A DNA stretch of 64,000 nucleotides from assembly GCF_001684955.1 (NCBI RefSeq), contig NZ_MAYF01000013.1, positions 1-64,000 on the forward strand, in the 5' to 3' direction. Each line of letters starts with the position of its first letter. The first letter of the stretch is position 1. This DNA is from Chryseobacterium contaminans. GTDB lineage: Bacteria > Bacteroidota > Bacteroidia > Flavobacteriales > Weeksellaceae. The notes under the pieces are model-generated. The model was not told where the DNA came from, ran no database searches, and was given only the letters and a program-made list of their open reading frames with translations. A program made the position numbers and the translations under genes. Shown here in pieces: positions 611 to 28,526 of the stretch.

Positions 611-3145
611 ATGATGTTAAACAAGAACTCCAAAAAACACTATTTTTTATTTTTTTTCCTGACCATTACCAGCTTTGCATATGCTCAAAACAGGGCCAGT
701 GGAAAGATTGTTGATGCCAAAAATAACAAAGAAGTGAGCAAGGTTGATATTTTTATCAATGACAATTCAGCTCCTTCTCTTACTACAACTTCGGGAAGCT
801 TCACCGTTCAGTCAGATAGCATTATCCAAAGATTAAGATTTGTTAGAAAAAACTATACTACAGAAATTCTTGATATTACTCCTGAGAATGCAGAAAATAT
901 TTTTGTTCAGCTATCCCAAGCGAAGGTAAGCAATATCCAGGAAGTGGTTATCCAGGCAGGAAAACCTAAATACAAAAGCAAGAAGGAAAACCCGGCTTAT
1001 GCGATTATGCAAAAAGTTTGGGCTCAAAAGAGAAATAACGGTCTGGAAAAATTTGATACTTATACCTATAAGGAATATGAAAAAACCCAGTTTGACCTTA
1101 ACAATATAGACAGTGCCTTTATGAAGAAAAAAATCTTCAATAAGCTTGACTTTATTTTTGATTATGCGGATTCTACTGCCAGCGGCAGGCTTGGTCTTCC
1201 TATTTTTCTGAATGAAGCTGTTTATGAAAATTATGGTAAAAACAGACCGGATAAAGACAGCAAAAGAACTTTAGTCGCTCAAAAAACATCAGGATTTCAA
1301 GATAATCAGGTAATTACGGTCTCCGCAAAGAACCTTTACCGGGATATTAATATTTATGATAATACATTAAATTATTTTGATATCGGATTTCAAAGTCCGG
1401 CAGGAACAGATGGGTTCGGAACTTATGATTATAACCTTGTAGACACCATTTCTATTCGTGGAGAGAAGGCTTTTCAAATAAGATATCAGCCAAAGCGTAA
1501 GGATGTACTGGCATTTCAGGGAAACCTTTATATAGATACGGATACTTATGCTGTTTTGGGAGCGACTTTAAGATCAACACAAAAAATCAATGTTAACTTC
1601 GTCAACAGTGTTTATACCCAACTGGAATATGATAATCCGGATGAAACAACCTTCCTTCCAAAGAAATTGGTTACGGAAGTTGAAATGAGTCCTTTTTCTA
1701 AGAAAAAAGGCTCCAAAAGCATTATTGCCAGAAAATCTGTTGATTATTCTAATTATGAGTTCAATATTCCACTTGACCCCAAAGTTTTCAAACGAAAGGA
1801 GGAGGAATATGAGGATAAATTTACAGATAAAGATGAAGCTTACTGGACAAAAGCAAGACCAGATACATTGTCTAAATCCGAACAGGGTGTTTATAAAATG
1901 TTGGATCAGTTACAACAAACGCCAAAGTTCAACCGCATGGTAAAATTATTTGAAACTCTTGGCTCACGTTATTATAACGCTTTTAAAGGAGTAGATTTCG
2001 GCCCTATCTTCTCTGTATATGGTAGAAATGAAGTGGAAGGAGACAGAATCAGACTAGGAGCAAGATCCTATTTTGGACTGAATGATCCATGGAGAGTTCA
2101 ATTCTATACTGCTTATGGCTTTAAAGATCGTCAGGTAAAATACGGTGCGGAAGCACGATATATGTTCAACAGGCTTAACCGATTTATGATTGGTGCCGGG
2201 ACCAGCAGGGATATTGTTCAACTTGGAGGACAGCTTACTTCCGGAGACGGAGTAGCATCACGTTCTTTATCTTCAAGTACTTTTTTTGCAAGAGGAGAGA
2301 ATATTTCTTTAAGTTCTGTAAACCAAACGAGCGTTTTTGCAGCCATTGAACCATGGAAAAACATACAGATAAGAGTTGATGGAGTGATGCAAAGTATTAA
2401 ATCTGCGATTCCAGAAAAATTTAACCTTATGTATTATCAGCCTGATGGGCAATTAAGAAAAACGGTAAATGATTCTCACGTTACCATTAGTTTAATTGCA
2501 AAGCCAGGCGCAAGATTTTCTCAAACCGGAATTGACAGATACCAGGCAAAAAACTTAGCTCCTACAATAGTATTAAGATACACCAGAGGTATTGAGGGAT
2601 TATTCAATGCTGATTTCAACTACGACAAGCTTCAGTTTATGTTCTACAAGCCGTTTTTAATTGGAACATTAGGTAAAACCATTGTCAACTTTGAAGCAGG
2701 AAAGAACTTCAATACAGTTCCTTTGGCTTTACAGAATATTATTCCCGCTAATCTTTCTTATGGTTTAGCCCCGAATACATTCTCACAGCTTAATTATTAT
2801 GAATTTGTGGCTGACGCTTATACAACTCTTCACCTGGAACATCACTTTAATGGTAAAATATTGTCTTATATTCCTTTAATCAAGAAATTAAAATTCAGAG
2901 AAGTTGCTTTTATAAGAGCGGCATACGGAACTTTAAGTGATGCATCCAAAGCTATTAATGTGGAAGGATTTAAATATTCAGCACCAAGCGAGCATATTTA
3001 CTATGAATATGGATTTGGAATTGAAAACATTGGTATCGGAAACCTAAGACTATTCAGAGTAGACTTCAACTGGAGAGGAAATTATCTTGACAGGCCTGAT
3101 ATTTCAAAATTCGGTGTTAAAGCCGGCATCCAGGTAGGATTTTAA
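611..3145 (+). CDS. DUF5686 family outer-membrane protein with N-terminal carboxypeptidase-regulatory-like domain
   Basis: 844 residues. A signal peptide ending near AYA-Q (residue 26) is followed by a beta-sandwich of the CarboxypepD_reg-like type (about 27-105), then the long DUF5686 region. The C-terminal half is rich in alternating aromatic strands and ends in GIQVGF, as in an outer-membrane beta-barrel. DUF5686 proteins are widespread in Bacteroidota and resemble SusC-like proteins without the plug; their substrate is unknown. Two adjacent ATGs (611 and 614) could both serve as start. The gene is monocistronic and ends at a strong bidirectional hairpin at 3167-3199. The family call is firm, the function is not. 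Confidence 0.85.
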   Translation: MMLNKNSKKHYFLFFFLTITSFAYAQNRASGKIVDAKNNKEVSKVDIFINDNSAPSLTTTSGSFTVQSDSIIQRLRFVRKNYTTEILDITPENAENIFVQLSQAKVSNIQEVVIQAGKPKYKSKKENPAYAIMQKVWAQKRNNGLEKFDTYTYKEYEKTQFDLNNIDSAFMKKKIFNKLDFIFDYADSTASGRLGLPIFLNEAVYENYGKNRPDKDSKRTLVAQKTSGFQDNQVITVSAKNLYRDINIYDNTLNYFDIGFQSPAGTDGFGTYDYNLVDTISIRGEKAFQIRYQPKRKDVLAFQGNLYIDTDTYAVLGATLRSTQKINVNFVNSVYTQLEYDNPDETTFLPKKLVTEVEMSPFSKKKGSKSIIARKSVDYSNYEFNIPLDPKVFKRKEEEYEDKFTDKDEAYWTKARPDTLSKSEQGVYKMLDQLQQTPKFNRMVKLFETLGSRYYNAFKGVDFGPIFSVYGRNEVEGDRIRLGARSYFGLNDPWRVQFYTAYGFKDRQVKYGAEARYMFNRLNRFMIGAGTSRDIVQLGGQLTSGDGVASRSLSSSTFFARGENISLSSVNQTSVFAAIEPWKNIQIRVDGVMQSIKSAIPEKFNLMYYQPDGQLRKTVNDSHVTISLIAKPGARFSQTGIDRYQAKNLAPTIVLRYTRGIEGLFNADFNYDKLQFMFYKPFLIGTLGKTIVNFEAGKNFNTVPLALQNIIPANLSYGLAPNTFSQLNYYEFVADAYTTLHLEHHFNGKILSYIPLIKKLKFREVAFIRAAYGTLSDASKAINVEGFKYSAPSEHIYYEYGFGIENIGIGNLRLFRVDFNWRGNYLDRPDISKFGVKAGIQVGF

Positions 3146-3166: not shown

Positions 3167-3205
3167 AGTTCGGGCGGCTTCAAAGAAGCCGCCCGAACTT
3201 ATTTC
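3167..3205. terminator. Bidirectional terminator between the DUF5686 gene and the peptide genes
   Basis: A perfect stem AGTTCGGGCGGCTT / AAGCCGCCCGAACT (3167-3180 / 3186-3199), extended by one C-G pair round a 3-nt loop. It lies between two convergent transcription units and can serve both. Confidence 0.9.
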
Positions 3206-3211
3206 TATTAC

Positions 3212-3382
3212 CTAAGAGCAATTACAAGACTCCTCTAAAGTATTCAGACAATATTGCTTCTGCCAGGAGCTCAACCCACACCATTGTGCACAGGTGGTTA
3301 TTATAAAATCCGGACATATATAGTCATTTCCTGCAGCGATTGATTTCAACTGCTTCTTTGTAATTCTTTTATAATTCTTCAT
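3212..3382 (-). CDS. Bacteriocin-like leader peptide, six-Cys core (second of pair)
   Basis: 56 residues starting MKNYKRITKKQLKSIAAG, a double-glycine-type leader, followed by a Cys-rich core ending ESCNCS. Core spacing is C-x7-C-x3-C-x9-C-x7-C-x-C with a conserved WCGxxxWQK block and CLN. The neighbour at 3393-3557 has the same six-Cys order. An extra ATG one codon upstream (3385) is possible. It lies 10 nt after that neighbour, so both are likely on one transcript. Such peptides are common in Chryseobacterium and annotated bacteriocin-like. No exporter or modifying enzyme is nearby, so antimicrobial activity is unproven. Confidence 0.75.
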   Translation of the reverse strand: MKNYKRITKKQLKSIAAGNDYICPDFIITTCAQWCGLSSWQKQYCLNTLEESCNCS

Positions 3383-3392
3383 CATCTATTGG

Positions 3393-3557
3393 CTAGCAAT
3401 TACAAGGCATTTCATCAATAACAGCATTCAGGCAATGGGCTTTTTGCCAGGCTGTCCAGCCACACCATTCACTGCACCATGAAGCAGGAATCGGACATCT
3501 TTCTCCTCCGGCAATTGTTTTCAACTGTCTTTTCGTTAGTTTTTTCAGATTTTTCAT
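3393..3557 (-). CDS. Bacteriocin-like leader peptide, six-Cys core (first of pair)
   Basis: 54 residues: leader MKNLKKLTKRQLKTIAGG, then a core with C-x6-C-x3-C-x9-C-x9-C-x-C ending PCNC. It shares WCGxxxWQK and CLN with the downstream peptide, although the leader-core junction and loops differ, so the pair are diverged paralogues. Cleavage after GG by a C39-type peptidase is the family expectation, but none is encoded here. A TATATTTG box on this strand (3640-3633) and a conserved leader motif (3607-3580) precede it. The core might form disulfides; this is inference. Confidence 0.8.
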   Translation of the reverse strand: MKNLKKLTKRQLKTIAGGERCPIPASWCSEWCGWTAWQKAHCLNAVIDEMPCNC

Positions 3558-3579
3558 ATTATTTAGTTTTAATGTGTTG

Positions 3580-3607
3580 CCTACTCTTTATGCTTTTCGG
3601 CTTCCGC
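3580..3607 (-). promoter_or_regulatory. Conserved 5' leader motif shared with the peptide gene at 27821
   Basis: On the minus strand: GCGGAAGCCGAAAAGC, four variable bases, then AGAGTAGG, ending 22 nt before the ATG. The same arrangement (GCGGTATCCGAAAAGC, four bases, AGAGTAGG) precedes the peptide gene starting at 27821. The two differences in the first part fall in the loop of a possible CGG-xxx-CCG mini-hairpin. Confidence 0.55.
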
Positions 3608-3632
3608 AACTGATTTGTTATTTGATATATAA

Positions 3633-3640
3633 CAAATATA
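3633..3640 (-). promoter_or_regulatory. -7 box of the peptide pair
   Basis: TATATTTG on the minus strand, a perfect TAnnTTTG. It predicts a leader of about 70 nt containing the motif at 3607-3580. An inverted repeat TTTGTTA/TAACAAA (3614-3636) overlaps the predicted start site. Confidence 0.55.
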
Positions 3641-3699: not shown

Positions 3700-3730
3700 A
3701 AAAAAGCCTCAGCAAGATGCCGAGGCTTTA
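3700..3730 (-). terminator. Terminator of the rplU-rpmA operon
   Basis: Stem AAAGCCTC / GAGGCTTT around AGCAAGATGC, followed on the minus strand by a T-run. It lies just beyond the rpmA stop codon. Confidence 0.85.
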
Positions 3731-3750: not shown

Positions 3751-4008
3751 TTATGCGTTTGGCTCTACAGATACGAAAGATCTGTTGTTTGCTTTCTTTC
3801 TGAAAACTACTTTACCGTCTACTAATGCAAACAAAGTGTGGTCTTTACCGATACCAACGTTATCACCTGGGTGGTGTTGAGTACCTCTTTGTCTAACAAT
3901 AATATTTCCTGCAATAGCAGCTTGTCCTCCGAAAATCTTCACACCTAATCTTTTAGAGTGAGACTCTCTACCGTTCTTGGAACTACCGACTCCTTTCTTG
4001 TGTGCCAT
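3751..4008 (-). CDS. rpmA: 50S ribosomal protein bL27
   Basis: 85 residues starting [16 protein letters not shown], the canonical bL27 N-terminus (no N-terminal cleavage extension), followed by the conserved LGVKxFGGQ and RQRGTxxHPG blocks. The protein binds 23S rRNA beside the peptidyl-transferase centre. It lies 12 nt downstream of rplU, the conserved L21-L27 operon, and ends at the hairpin at 3700-3730. Length and motifs are fully normal. Confidence 0.98.
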
Positions 4009-4020
4009 TTTATTACTGGA

Positions 4021-4596
4021 TTATTTGTTAAGTGCTTTAAATTGATCAATATTCTTAATGATAGCAGCATCTACTTCTTCATGAGTAAGAATATTCTTTT
4101 CTAATTCAACTTTAACTGCTTTACCTAAAGTAATTAAAGTTTCTCTGTTCTCTTTAGACTGAGACAAGTTGTTTTTCTTTAAGTGATAGTTCAACTCGTG
4201 ATCTTCGCTAAAGTTAACAGTTGCGTTGTCAGAAAGAACCTCAGACTTTACAGTTTCTTTTTTAGCAGCTTTTTTAGCTCCTGCTTCAAATCCTGTAATA
4301 CCAGTGATTACGATTTGAGTTAAAGATTGTCTGTGACCATTTTTCACTTTGTAACCTTTTCTTCTTTTCTTTTTGAAAACGATTACTTTATCAGCTTTAA
4401 CATGGTCTAGGATCTCTGCCTCCACAGTGATACCGCTTACAGCTGGGGCGCCTACAGTGATTGCTCCGTTTACAGTAAGAAGAACTTTATCGAAAGAAAC
4501 TTTCCCTCCTTTATCTCCTTTTAAACGGTTCACAAACAACTTCTGGTCTTGCTCAACTTTGTATTGAAGCCCTGCTATTTCTACAATTGCAAACAT
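4021..4596 (-). CDS. rplU: 50S ribosomal protein bL21 with long C-terminal extension
   Basis: 191 residues. The first roughly 103 are a standard bL21 (MFAIVEIAGLQYKVEQ; KKKRRKGYKVKNGHRQ), which binds 23S rRNA. The remaining roughly 88 begin with a Lys/Ala-rich linker (GAKKAAKKETVKSE) and continue as a predicted helical, charged domain ending FKALNK. Bacterial L21 is usually close to 100 residues; extended forms occur in flavobacteria. The tail resembles an adaptor-type helical domain but I cannot name it. It is first gene of the rplU-rpmA operon, with a minus-strand TATATTTG box at 4634-4627 about 30 nt upstream. Confidence 0.95.
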   Translation of the reverse strand: MFAIVEIAGLQYKVEQDQKLFVNRLKGDKGGKVSFDKVLLTVNGAITVGAPAVSGITVEAEILDHVKADKVIVFKKKRRKGYKVKNGHRQSLTQIVITGITGFEAGAKKAAKKETVKSEVLSDNATVNFSEDHELNYHLKKNNLSQSKENRETLITLGKAVKVELEKNILTHEEVDAAIIKNIDQFKALNK

Positions 4597-27551: not shown

Positions 27552-27821
27552 TTATCCCGTTATACAGTAAAACTCCGGACAAGGAGTAGACTGTATAAAA
27601 GTTCCCCACGGGCAAATACAGGTATAGCTACTTCCACCACCGGTGCCGCCACCGCCGCCCGGATCAATTACATAGGGTACACATTTTCCTCCGGAACATA
27701 TATATCCGGGCGCACAGCCACCTTCACCAGGCCCACCTCCTTCAAAACAATAGGCAGGTCCTATGTCACCCGCTATCATTTTCTTTTGTTCATCTCTGGA
27801 AAGTTTTTTGAAATTTTTCAT
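27552..27821 (-). CDS. Bacteriocin-like leader peptide with Gly-rich core
   Basis: 89 residues: leader MKNFKKLSRDEQKKMIAG, then a core with eight Cys, including the EGF-like or knottin-like GGCAPGYICSGGKCVP, a (Gly/Pro)-rich hinge and YTCICPWGTF. It differs from the six-Cys pair at 3.2-3.6 kb but shares the leader type and the 5' leader motif (27868-27841). No export gene is adjacent. Function is unknown; membership of the Chryseobacterium bacteriocin-like leader group is inferred from the N-terminus. Confidence 0.75.
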   Translation of the reverse strand: MKNFKKLSRDEQKKMIAGDIGPAYCFEGGGPGEGGCAPGYICSGGKCVPYVIDPGGGGGTGGGSSYTCICPWGTFIQSTPCPEFYCITG

Positions 27822-27840
27822 AGTTTGATGTTTCGTTTTT

Positions 27841-27868
27841 CCTACTCTATCAGCTTTTCGGATACCGC
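27841..27868 (-). promoter_or_regulatory. Conserved 5' leader motif (second copy)
   Basis: Minus strand: GCGGTATCCGAAAAGC, TGAT, AGAGTAGG, ending 19 nt before the ATG; 23 of 28 positions match the copy at 3607-3580. Weak TAATTTTA -7-like box lies directly upstream. Confidence 0.55.
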
Positions 27869-28007
27869 TTTTCTAAAATTAGAATTTATTTATCTAATAT
27901 TCAAATATTTACAATTGAAATTTACGTTGGATTAAATTTTTAGTAACATTTTAAATAAATTCCATTTTTTAATACCCATCACTTTATTTAATTGAAAACA
28001 TTTTAAT

Positions 28008-28045: not shown

Positions 28046-28210
28046 ATGAAAAATCTAAAAAAACTAAGAAAAGACCAATTGAAAGGTATTTCCGGAGGAG
28101 CTAATTTCCCAGGAGTTGAATACTGTCTGTATGCTTGTAATGGTACGATCATTTGTGCCGTCTGCAGTGATGATTTCAAATGCCCTGTTACAGGTGAGGA
28201 AATAATGTAA
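28046..28210 (+). CDS. Bacteriocin-like leader peptide, four-Cys type (copy 1)
   Basis: 54 residues: leader MKNLKKLRKDQLKGISGG, core with C-x3-C-x8-C-x5-C (plus one extra Cys within) and a following Pro (KCP). The next gene shares this spacing, so they form a second core family distinct from the six-Cys pair. It has its own -7 box and terminator. Cleavage after GG is expected from the leader type. Confidence 0.78.
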   Translation: MKNLKKLRKDQLKGISGGANFPGVEYCLYACNGTIICAVCSDDFKCPVTGEEIM

Positions 28211-28355: not shown

Positions 28356-28526
28356 ATGAAAAATTTAATAAAATTAAGTAAAGACAAATTGAAAATAATT
28401 TCCGGGGGAATAAGTTATCCATATCCCGGTGAATGTTTTTATGTGTGCAGCGATGGAATACAATATAGAGCACTGTGCAGATTGGAATTCATTTGCCCCG
28501 ATGGCGAACAGCCTATTATTTACTAG
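28356..28526 (+). CDS. Bacteriocin-like leader peptide, four-Cys type (copy 2)
   Basis: 56 residues: leader MKNLIKLSKDKLKIISGG, core C-x3-C-x9-C-x5-C-P, paralogous to the peptide at 28046. Separate transcription is suggested by the terminator before it, a TATCTTTA box near 28325 and its own terminator after it. It is convergent with the radical SAM gene. Confidence 0.78.
   Translation: MKNLIKLSKDKLKIISGGISYPYPGECFYVCSDGIQYRALCRLEFICPDGEQPIIY

Follow-up and report, generated by a model that had tools for sequence, protein, structure and literature searches.

A leader type of Chryseobacterium peptides is already known to NCBI as family NF047798 (leader_Chryseo, 'bacteriocin-like protein'), whose model spans the 18-residue leader only. 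A comparison of another kind is offered by the prochlorosin-type libraries, in which one leader type precedes cores that are cyclised by a lanthipeptide synthetase. Among the Bacteroidetes, small peptides with the role of toxins are represented by the bacteroidetocins, which the accessible parts of their reports describe as related to class IIa bacteriocins (PMC6671954, PMC8546649). Six-Cys peptides of similar size have been recorded as actinodefensins (NF038042) and bacterial cis-defensins (PMC11561630); the part of the latter source that was available reports a GXC motif for all cis-defensins and a discovery pipeline that demanded a signal peptide. In the open-licence literature searched for double-glycine-leader bacteriocins of Chryseobacterium, the single match deals with graspetides (PMC8939145), and none of the literature on DUF805 dealt with an RNA by title.

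The present work examines two adjacent genes, P2 and P1, on the minus strand of the window, i.e. the whole 64,000-nt stretch of Chryseobacterium contaminans DNA that was analyzed. As the leader type is known to NCBI, both are additions to a kind of peptide already described. P2 (3393–3557) codes for 54 residues, comprising a GG-ended leader (codons 1–18, 3504–3557) and a 36-residue six-Cys core, and P1 (3212–3385) for 57 residues, with an AG-ended leader and a six-Cys core of 38; P1 starts 7 nt past the P2 stop codon. P2 scores 33.9 bits with NF047798, over the curated cut-off of 23.5, and P1, at 17.7 bits, falls under it, yet its kinship with P2 is plain (54% identity, E 2.9e-12). The cores lie outside that model and follow the pattern C-x6-C-x3-C-x9-C-x9-C-x-C in P2 (spacing 6-3-9-9-1) and C-x7-C-x3-C-x9-C-x7-C-x-C in P1 (spacing 7-3-9-7-1). 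A preliminary description of this DNA had claimed two tiny genes at 3212–3557 with a common leader type, a common order of six Cys and WCG, WQK and CLN blocks, and it was borne out: both ORFs are present at exactly these coordinates, and 26 of the 58 columns of the P1/P2 alignment are invariant, among them a large part of the leader and the WCG, WQK and CLN blocks. No family of NCBIfam or Pfam reached its cut-off with the core, and a search of PHROGs gave a weak match to the uncharacterised phrog_23768 (E 0.017).

By its sequence, the P2-P1 pair is a unit of its own, bordered by terminator-like hairpins and headed by a DUF805b RNA. A terminator-like hairpin with a T tail (3703–3729, minus strand) divides it from rpmA, and another (3167–3199, both strands) lies behind P1 and also behind the gene for a DUF5686 protein; three such hairpins were called in the region, with 0.6 expected. 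The conserved upstream neighbours, recognized from the ORF list and by synteny, occupy 3751–4008 and 4021–4596 on the minus strand and are presumably rpmA (L27) and rplU (L21), while the convergent DUF5686 gene occupies 611–3145 on the plus strand (Pfam PF18939, 201.9 bits). The ORF list shows no apparent immunity gene beside P1 and P2 within the unit, and no modification enzyme between the genes that flank them. A -7-like box, TATATTTG (3633–3640, minus strand), matches TAnnTTTG, which we take to be the Bacteroidota -7 promoter box consensus. The longer pattern TTG-N19-TAnnTTTG, tried at this single spacing, gave no match upstream of P2, and thus only the -7-like box is claimed.

The RNA at the head of the pair belongs to Rfam family RF02914 (DUF805b) and lies at 3578–3610 on the minus strand, in the 5' UTR of P2 and 20 nt before its start codon. 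Its cmscan score of 41.5 bits exceeds the gathering score of 35.6. Over the 64-kb window, Rfam gave two matches over threshold, both of them DUF805b and both directly before leader peptide genes; the second (27839–27871, minus strand, 42.9 bits) is 17 nt before a gene for an 89-residue leader peptide with eight core Cys (27552–27821, minus strand; leader 27780–27821). No RNA element was found in front of P1, nor before two further leader peptide genes on the plus strand of the window, which code for 54 residues with five core Cys (28046–28210) and 56 residues with four (28356–28526). In 52 loci, the element was sought with a loose pattern of 23 bases that tolerates as many as 7 errors. It lies before 69 of the 96 six-Cys family genes considered (of 101 core ORFs, 5 lacked a clear leader start and were omitted), and none of these 69 follows another leader ORF within 100 nt; the genes without the element follow another leader ORF in 20 of 27 cases and do not in 7. 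DUF805b thus heads the six-Cys arrays.

Three genomes, namely that of the window, a second one (G144) and a third (G121), contain 24 DUF805b matches over cut-off (8, 3 and 13, respectively). The gene behind the element is a leader peptide in 17 of these 24 (7/8, 1/3 and 9/13), a count in which two that the pattern missed were read by eye and one pattern-called leader was not counted. The other seven genes comprise two for tail-collar proteins, two for small DUF6520-like proteins (one scoring below the Pfam cut-off), one for a different GG-ended precursor and two without a Pfam match, and none of eight scanned non-leader proteins downstream of DUF805b matched Pfam DUF805. At 23 bits, which is below cut-off, the element further precedes a gene for a PixA inclusion-body protein. 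On contig C223 (L266, ~1501–1730), another below-cut-off element (29.5 bits) stands before a seemingly decayed leader peptide gene. The exporter regions that are discussed below also contain DUF805b: two elements lie in that of the window's genome, the exporter gene of G121 has one on either side, and that of G144 has a single one next to it. In each of the three genomes examined, the exporter region is hence marked by DUF805b, but only a minority of the leader peptides is. By a simple pattern, the element precedes 8 of the 50 leader peptides recovered in the window's genome and 4 of the 36 recovered in G144, where one of the four sits in an unlikely place, so the notion that all leader peptides have it was rejected in favor of a marked subset. 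In 30 of 33 contexts, the element ends 17–25 nt before the assigned start codon, a distance that would fit control of translation.

The printed consensus of RF02914 is a single 4-bp hairpin, and it is here that the present elements differ. In the window element, stem 1 consists of U3-A20, G4-C19 and C5-G18, and stem 2 of G10-C32, C11-G31 and C12-G30; the two interleaved stems would form an H-type pseudoknot. Covariation was assessed on 30 of 33 sites from the three genomes, sites below the cut-off included; the three omitted are an exact duplicate and two sites that carry a long insertion. Paired bases fill 98.3% of the 180 cells versus 80.4% (sd 1.6) in shuffles; all six pairs have changed on both sides, and 28 cells are compensated versus 5.3 in shuffles. 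Covariation scores 0.500, where shuffles reach 0.154 and slid versions no more than 0.133, the latter comparison being favored by the fact that the stems were read off the same 30 sequences. The number of pair types, 9 versus 8.2, is not above that of shuffles. When the elements of the six-Cys family were added, each of the six pairs was paired in 80–86 of 87 distinct elements, parsed from the 71 of 121 upstream regions with exact GAAAA and GAGTA loops. A fourth pair of stem 1, the outermost in the Rfam hairpin, was rejected, since it is paired in 35 of 87 elements versus 32.6 in shuffles. The outermost pair of the Rfam hairpin is thus unsupported, and the second, interleaved stem covaries.

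It could still be argued that the 5' element is a duplicated remnant of a promoter or leader, or a protein-binding site in DNA, instead of a structured regulatory RNA. Within the six-Cys family alone the stems barely vary, being nearly invariant, and pairing there is no better than in shuffled sequences; moreover, the element and the -7-like box occur together upstream of 72 of the 121 family genes. The compensatory changes in all six pairs at 30 sites of three genomes, with the covariation score of 0.500 against 0.154, make such an origin unlikely. As for the function of the RNA, it may be suggested tentatively, as a possibility that we rate below even, that DUF805b is a pseudoknot regulator of the H-type, about 35 nt long and either riboswitch-like or protein-bound, which from its place near the start codon co-ordinates the operon of a C39 exporter, the adjoining VKOR-DsbA oxidase and several leader peptides, the six-Cys family among them. 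Neither the assignment of DUF805b to peptides and an exporter nor its second stem turned up in the open-licence literature searched. An orphan regulatory RNA thereby gains a genetic context, with target genes and a second stem open to experiment.

Among the genomes searched, the six-Cys family is widespread in the genus and nearly confined to it. Of 173 genomes from the genus, the window's own included, 112 have relatives of full-length P2 at E <= 1e-4, of which the weakest may rest on the leader. A core-only profile, built from 18 cores without their leaders and with both window cores among its rows, matched 107 of 320 genomes of the family Weeksellaceae, in 2 of 33 genera (104 genomes from the genus of the window and 3 from a second genus). 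Another core profile, applied to a sample of the order, matched 25 of 395 genomes, all from the window's genus (1 of 108 genera). A contig scan seeded with the leader pattern recovered 79 loci from the best 80 of 137 candidates, all titled as Chryseobacterium. From 127 distinct sequences extracted, six without a clear start codon were removed; 118 of the remaining 121 have exactly six Cys. The Cys pattern, for which related genomes had been proposed as the place to look, is therefore kept well beyond the initial pair. The commonest spacings are 6-3-9-9-1 (33), 6-3-9-8-1 (27) and 7-3-9-7-1 (22), with 6-3-9-5-2 (18) and 6-3-9-5-4 (3) being rarer. Trp precedes Cys3 in 118 of the 121 sequences, and Gln stands four residues before Cys4 in 117.

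Selection on the coding sequence appears to be purifying. Close orthologs, taken as 26 disjoint pairs, gave a dN/dS of 0.13 for the leader and 0.08 for the core, or 0.12 once the Cys of the core are excluded. Pairs were admitted at a protein identity above 60% and a pS of 0.03–0.45, a choice that favors low values. Two clades picked by motif gave dN/dS of 0.07–0.14, with dS near saturation. Paralogs at the same locus are far more different (core pN 0.373). Taken together with the distribution of the family, these ratios indicate that the six-Cys genes are real and conserved. No diversifying selection was found in the ortholog pairs, whose choice leans against finding any, and the coding sequence bears no sign of an arms race in these comparisons.

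The order of the Cys raises the question of whether P1 and P2 are true CS-alpha-beta defensins, homologous to the actinodefensins or to the defensins of eukaryotes. They share with NF038042 and with the cis-defensins, as the available part of the report presents them (PMC11561630), six Cys, the order C..CxxxC..C..CxC and a similar size; the spacing fits in both P1 and P2, and the same order recurs in 93 of the 118 six-Cys members. In the remaining 25, Cys5 and Cys6 are separated by two or four residues (CxxC or CxxxxC) and not by one. P1 matches NF038042 over residues 19–56 with an E of 0.0017, yet at 18.8 bits it falls far under the cut-off of 65, and P2 is unlisted for that family. Gly two residues before Cys4, i.e. 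the GxC of the gamma-core, occurs in none of the 118.

The predicted structures point in the same direction. The two cores were modeled with AlphaFold2 from 38 and 47 aligned rows, with a mean pLDDT of 84.8 and 82.4 and a pTM of 0.49 and 0.52. The helices are modeled at residues 10–14 and 18–23 in P2 and at 13–17 and 21–26 in P1, with no strand of three or more residues in either core, so that the mature product would be a compact two-helix miniprotein. Such models, with two helices and no sheet, are unlike the helix on a beta sheet of a defensin. Neither model was matched to a PDB entry by Foldseek, and VIA-align had nothing to compare with the P2 model, results that have little weight at such length; at the sequence level, P1 had a single PDB hit, at chance level (E 0.86). 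Because GxC is absent, the models are helical and the NF038042 score is under its cut-off, a defensin identity was rejected, and we consider it very improbable. The two peptides would further depart from the cis-defensins, insofar as these are characterized in the available part of the source (PMC11561630), in their GG leader and presumed C39 export, in the variable distance between Cys5 and Cys6, in the missing GXC and in the absence of a modeled sheet.

P1 and P2 do not stand alone in their genome. The leader model finds 58 places there at E <= 1, of which 30 are over the curated cut-off, and a leader pattern blind to Cys, applied to the DNA around all 58, recovered 50 complete peptide ORFs while missing some. 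Their cores contain 2 Cys (1 peptide), 3 (1), 4 (19), 5 (1), 6 (25) or 8 (3), the count thus being even in 48 of 50. In G144, where 42 of 47 leader places were used and the five weakest left out, the count is even in 33 of 36 recovered leader ORFs, and for one of the three odd ORFs the cut was probably placed too late. When the 86 peptides of both genomes were pooled and each similarity cluster was represented once, 48 of 51 were even. Among 40-residue segments of long ordinary ORFs with at least three Cys, 14 of 51 were even, a weak control that includes only counts of 3 and 4; among ORFs of the same DNA, 38 of 47 were even, in a control contaminated by real peptides and with about half of its members having just two Cys. 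Even counts are what disulfide-bonded products need, and P1 and P2 thus probably belong to a large genome-wide set of disulfide-stapled peptides. The 'bacteriocin-like' leader peptides of Chryseobacterium may accordingly be mostly even in their Cys, as counted in two genomes. A leader peptide with five Cys in the same spacing was observed in both the window's genome and G144 (L194, L218), and it could form a covalent dimer.

A route for the export of such peptides can be recognized in the same genome. The preliminary description had advised locating a C39 exporter, and two C39 peptidase genes were found, both within ABC exporters, one of them with similar leader peptides on its two sides. The latter lies on contig C57, where the order is a gene for an AraC-type regulator, one for a 502-residue protein with VKOR and Thioredoxin_4 domains, a leader peptide, C39-ABC, a second leader peptide and HlyD, the HlyD protein matching HlyD_3. 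The VKOR and DsbA-like fusion (L141, 6822–8327) thus adjoins the exporter. Its N-terminus, before residue 146, has no Pfam match and by eye resembles a degenerate C39 domain. Near the other exporter, on contig C1, lie genes for an HlyD protein and for an efflux protein of the outer membrane. The C57 region encodes the likely exporter of P1 and P2, and the C1 exporter is a second candidate.

The oxidase and the peptides tend to occur together. The VKOR-thioredoxin gene is present in 162 of the 173 genomes of the genus (E <= 1e-30), and a C39-ABC relative, possibly a paralog, in 169 (E <= 1e-100). Six-Cys matches are missing from all 11 genomes that lack the VKOR gene and occur in 112 of the 162 that have it (Fisher p 5.6e-6, shared ancestry ignored), and by eye none of these 11 is in the list of the core profile either. 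Similarly, 10 of the 11 genomes without the gene have no match to the leader model, compared with 3 of the 162 with it (p 6e-13, shared ancestry again ignored). The exception among the former is G068, which has four leader hits and no oxidase or exporter match; those among the latter are G088, G137 and G029, the last with a weak oxidase match. An exporter region that encodes its own disulfide oxidase, co-occurring with the peptides across the genus, is thus suggested. The folded, disulfide-linked product that had been proposed from the two genes alone, and its leader-directed export, find indirect but independent support in the six Cys of 118 of 121 sequences, in the C39 exporter with its leader peptides, in the VKOR-DsbA-like neighbor with its co-occurrence and in the even counts of 48 of 50 cores.

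The Cys might instead be engaged in thioether-like links, P1 and P2 being precursors of RiPPs modified by a radical-SAM or other enzyme. The leader of P2 weakly resembles TIGR04149, a family of rSAM-modified RiPPs (E 0.0071; 16.2 bits against a cut-off of 25). No modification enzyme is encoded between the flanking genes, however, the conserved neighbors being rplU, rpmA and the DUF5686 gene, and the exporter region encodes the VKOR-thioredoxin protein in its place. Such a modification therefore seems scarcely probable at all. In having one leader type and few exporters for dozens of divergent cores, the peptides resemble the prochlorosin-type libraries, but they differ in that a disulfide oxidase, and not a lanthipeptide synthetase, is encoded with the exporter.

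On balance, P1 and P2 are probably precursors of secreted peptides that come from a unit headed by DUF805b, are exported by C39-ABC-HlyD and are oxidized by VKOR-DsbA, with a bacteriocin-like role as the likeliest use. Homology, Cys conservation, synteny, purifying selection, the co-occurrence of the oxidase, the RNA family and its covariation are established, and from there a pathway can be proposed in which the cleavage, the export route, the disulfides, regulation by the RNA and, most of all, what the peptides do are deduced. Transcription would start just downstream of the box at 3640–3633, and the DUF805b pseudoknot at the start of the mRNA would set the expression of P2 and P1. The leader would then dock on the C39 peptidase of the ABC exporter on contig C57, and the C39 domain would cut after GG in P2 or AG in P1 during export, whereupon a core of ~36–38 residues would exit through the ABC-HlyD channel. 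The VKOR-DsbA-like fusion may oxidize the six Cys to three disulfides. The product would be two compact released peptides within a set of dozens that is served by very few exporters. If this is true, the genus holds a large set of disulfide-stapled peptides, part of which is switched via an unrecognized small RNA sensor, and a large collection of small folded peptides could be reached from one export system. The six-Cys syntenic family, its link to a VKOR-DsbA exporter and the even-Cys set did not turn up in the open-licence literature searched. The wider peptide set, the RNA element, the exporter operon and the distinction from defensins all go beyond the preliminary description.

What the peptides do outside the cell can be approached from their sequences. 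Competition with other bacteria, in a bacteriocin-like manner, would be the likeliest use of P1 and P2, at somewhat less than an even chance, with signalling or another extracellular role close behind. The bacteroidetocins, which according to the available parts of the sources are likewise small peptides from Bacteroidetes, are toxins (PMC6671954, PMC8546649). The net charge of the cores averages -1.7 (n=118), and is -3 in P1 and -2 in P2. Most membrane-active bacteriocins are not acidic, unlike these cores. Acidic cores, the absence of an apparent immunity gene and purifying selection disfavor a classical bacteriocin, and the same observations would suit peptides that do not kill but, secreted by the same route of export and oxidation, act as signals or pheromones or have a structural or public-good role. 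Strong purifying selection on ortholog pairs, a single conserved chromosomal site in 51 of 52 loci and the fact that P2 had no match in plasmid or phage collections also speak for such roles, which we regard as possible rather than probable. The many divergent paralogs in each genome and the 1–4 core ORFs per locus would be unusual for a single signal, and the conserved neighbors are rplU, rpmA and the DUF5686 gene, with no receptor or kinase. A bacteriocin-like use in competition stays the preferred reading.

The genes rplU and rpmA each lie upstream of the array on the same strand in 51 of the 52 contig loci, and the DUF5686 gene is convergent on the opposite strand in 50. The number of core ORFs per locus is one in 18 loci, two in 23, three in 7 and four in 4. 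Of 21 genomes that the core profile did not match, G013 and G034 carry weak full-length matches to P2; the DUF5686 gene lies 281–1051 nt behind rpmA in 20 of the 21. The gap between rpmA and DUF5686 holds a different Cys-rich leader peptide in 7 of these 21 genomes (L143, L146, L150, L154, L155, L156, L163); compared with the six-Cys family by hhalign, this second Cys-rich type gave a probability of 6.2% and an E of 0.006.
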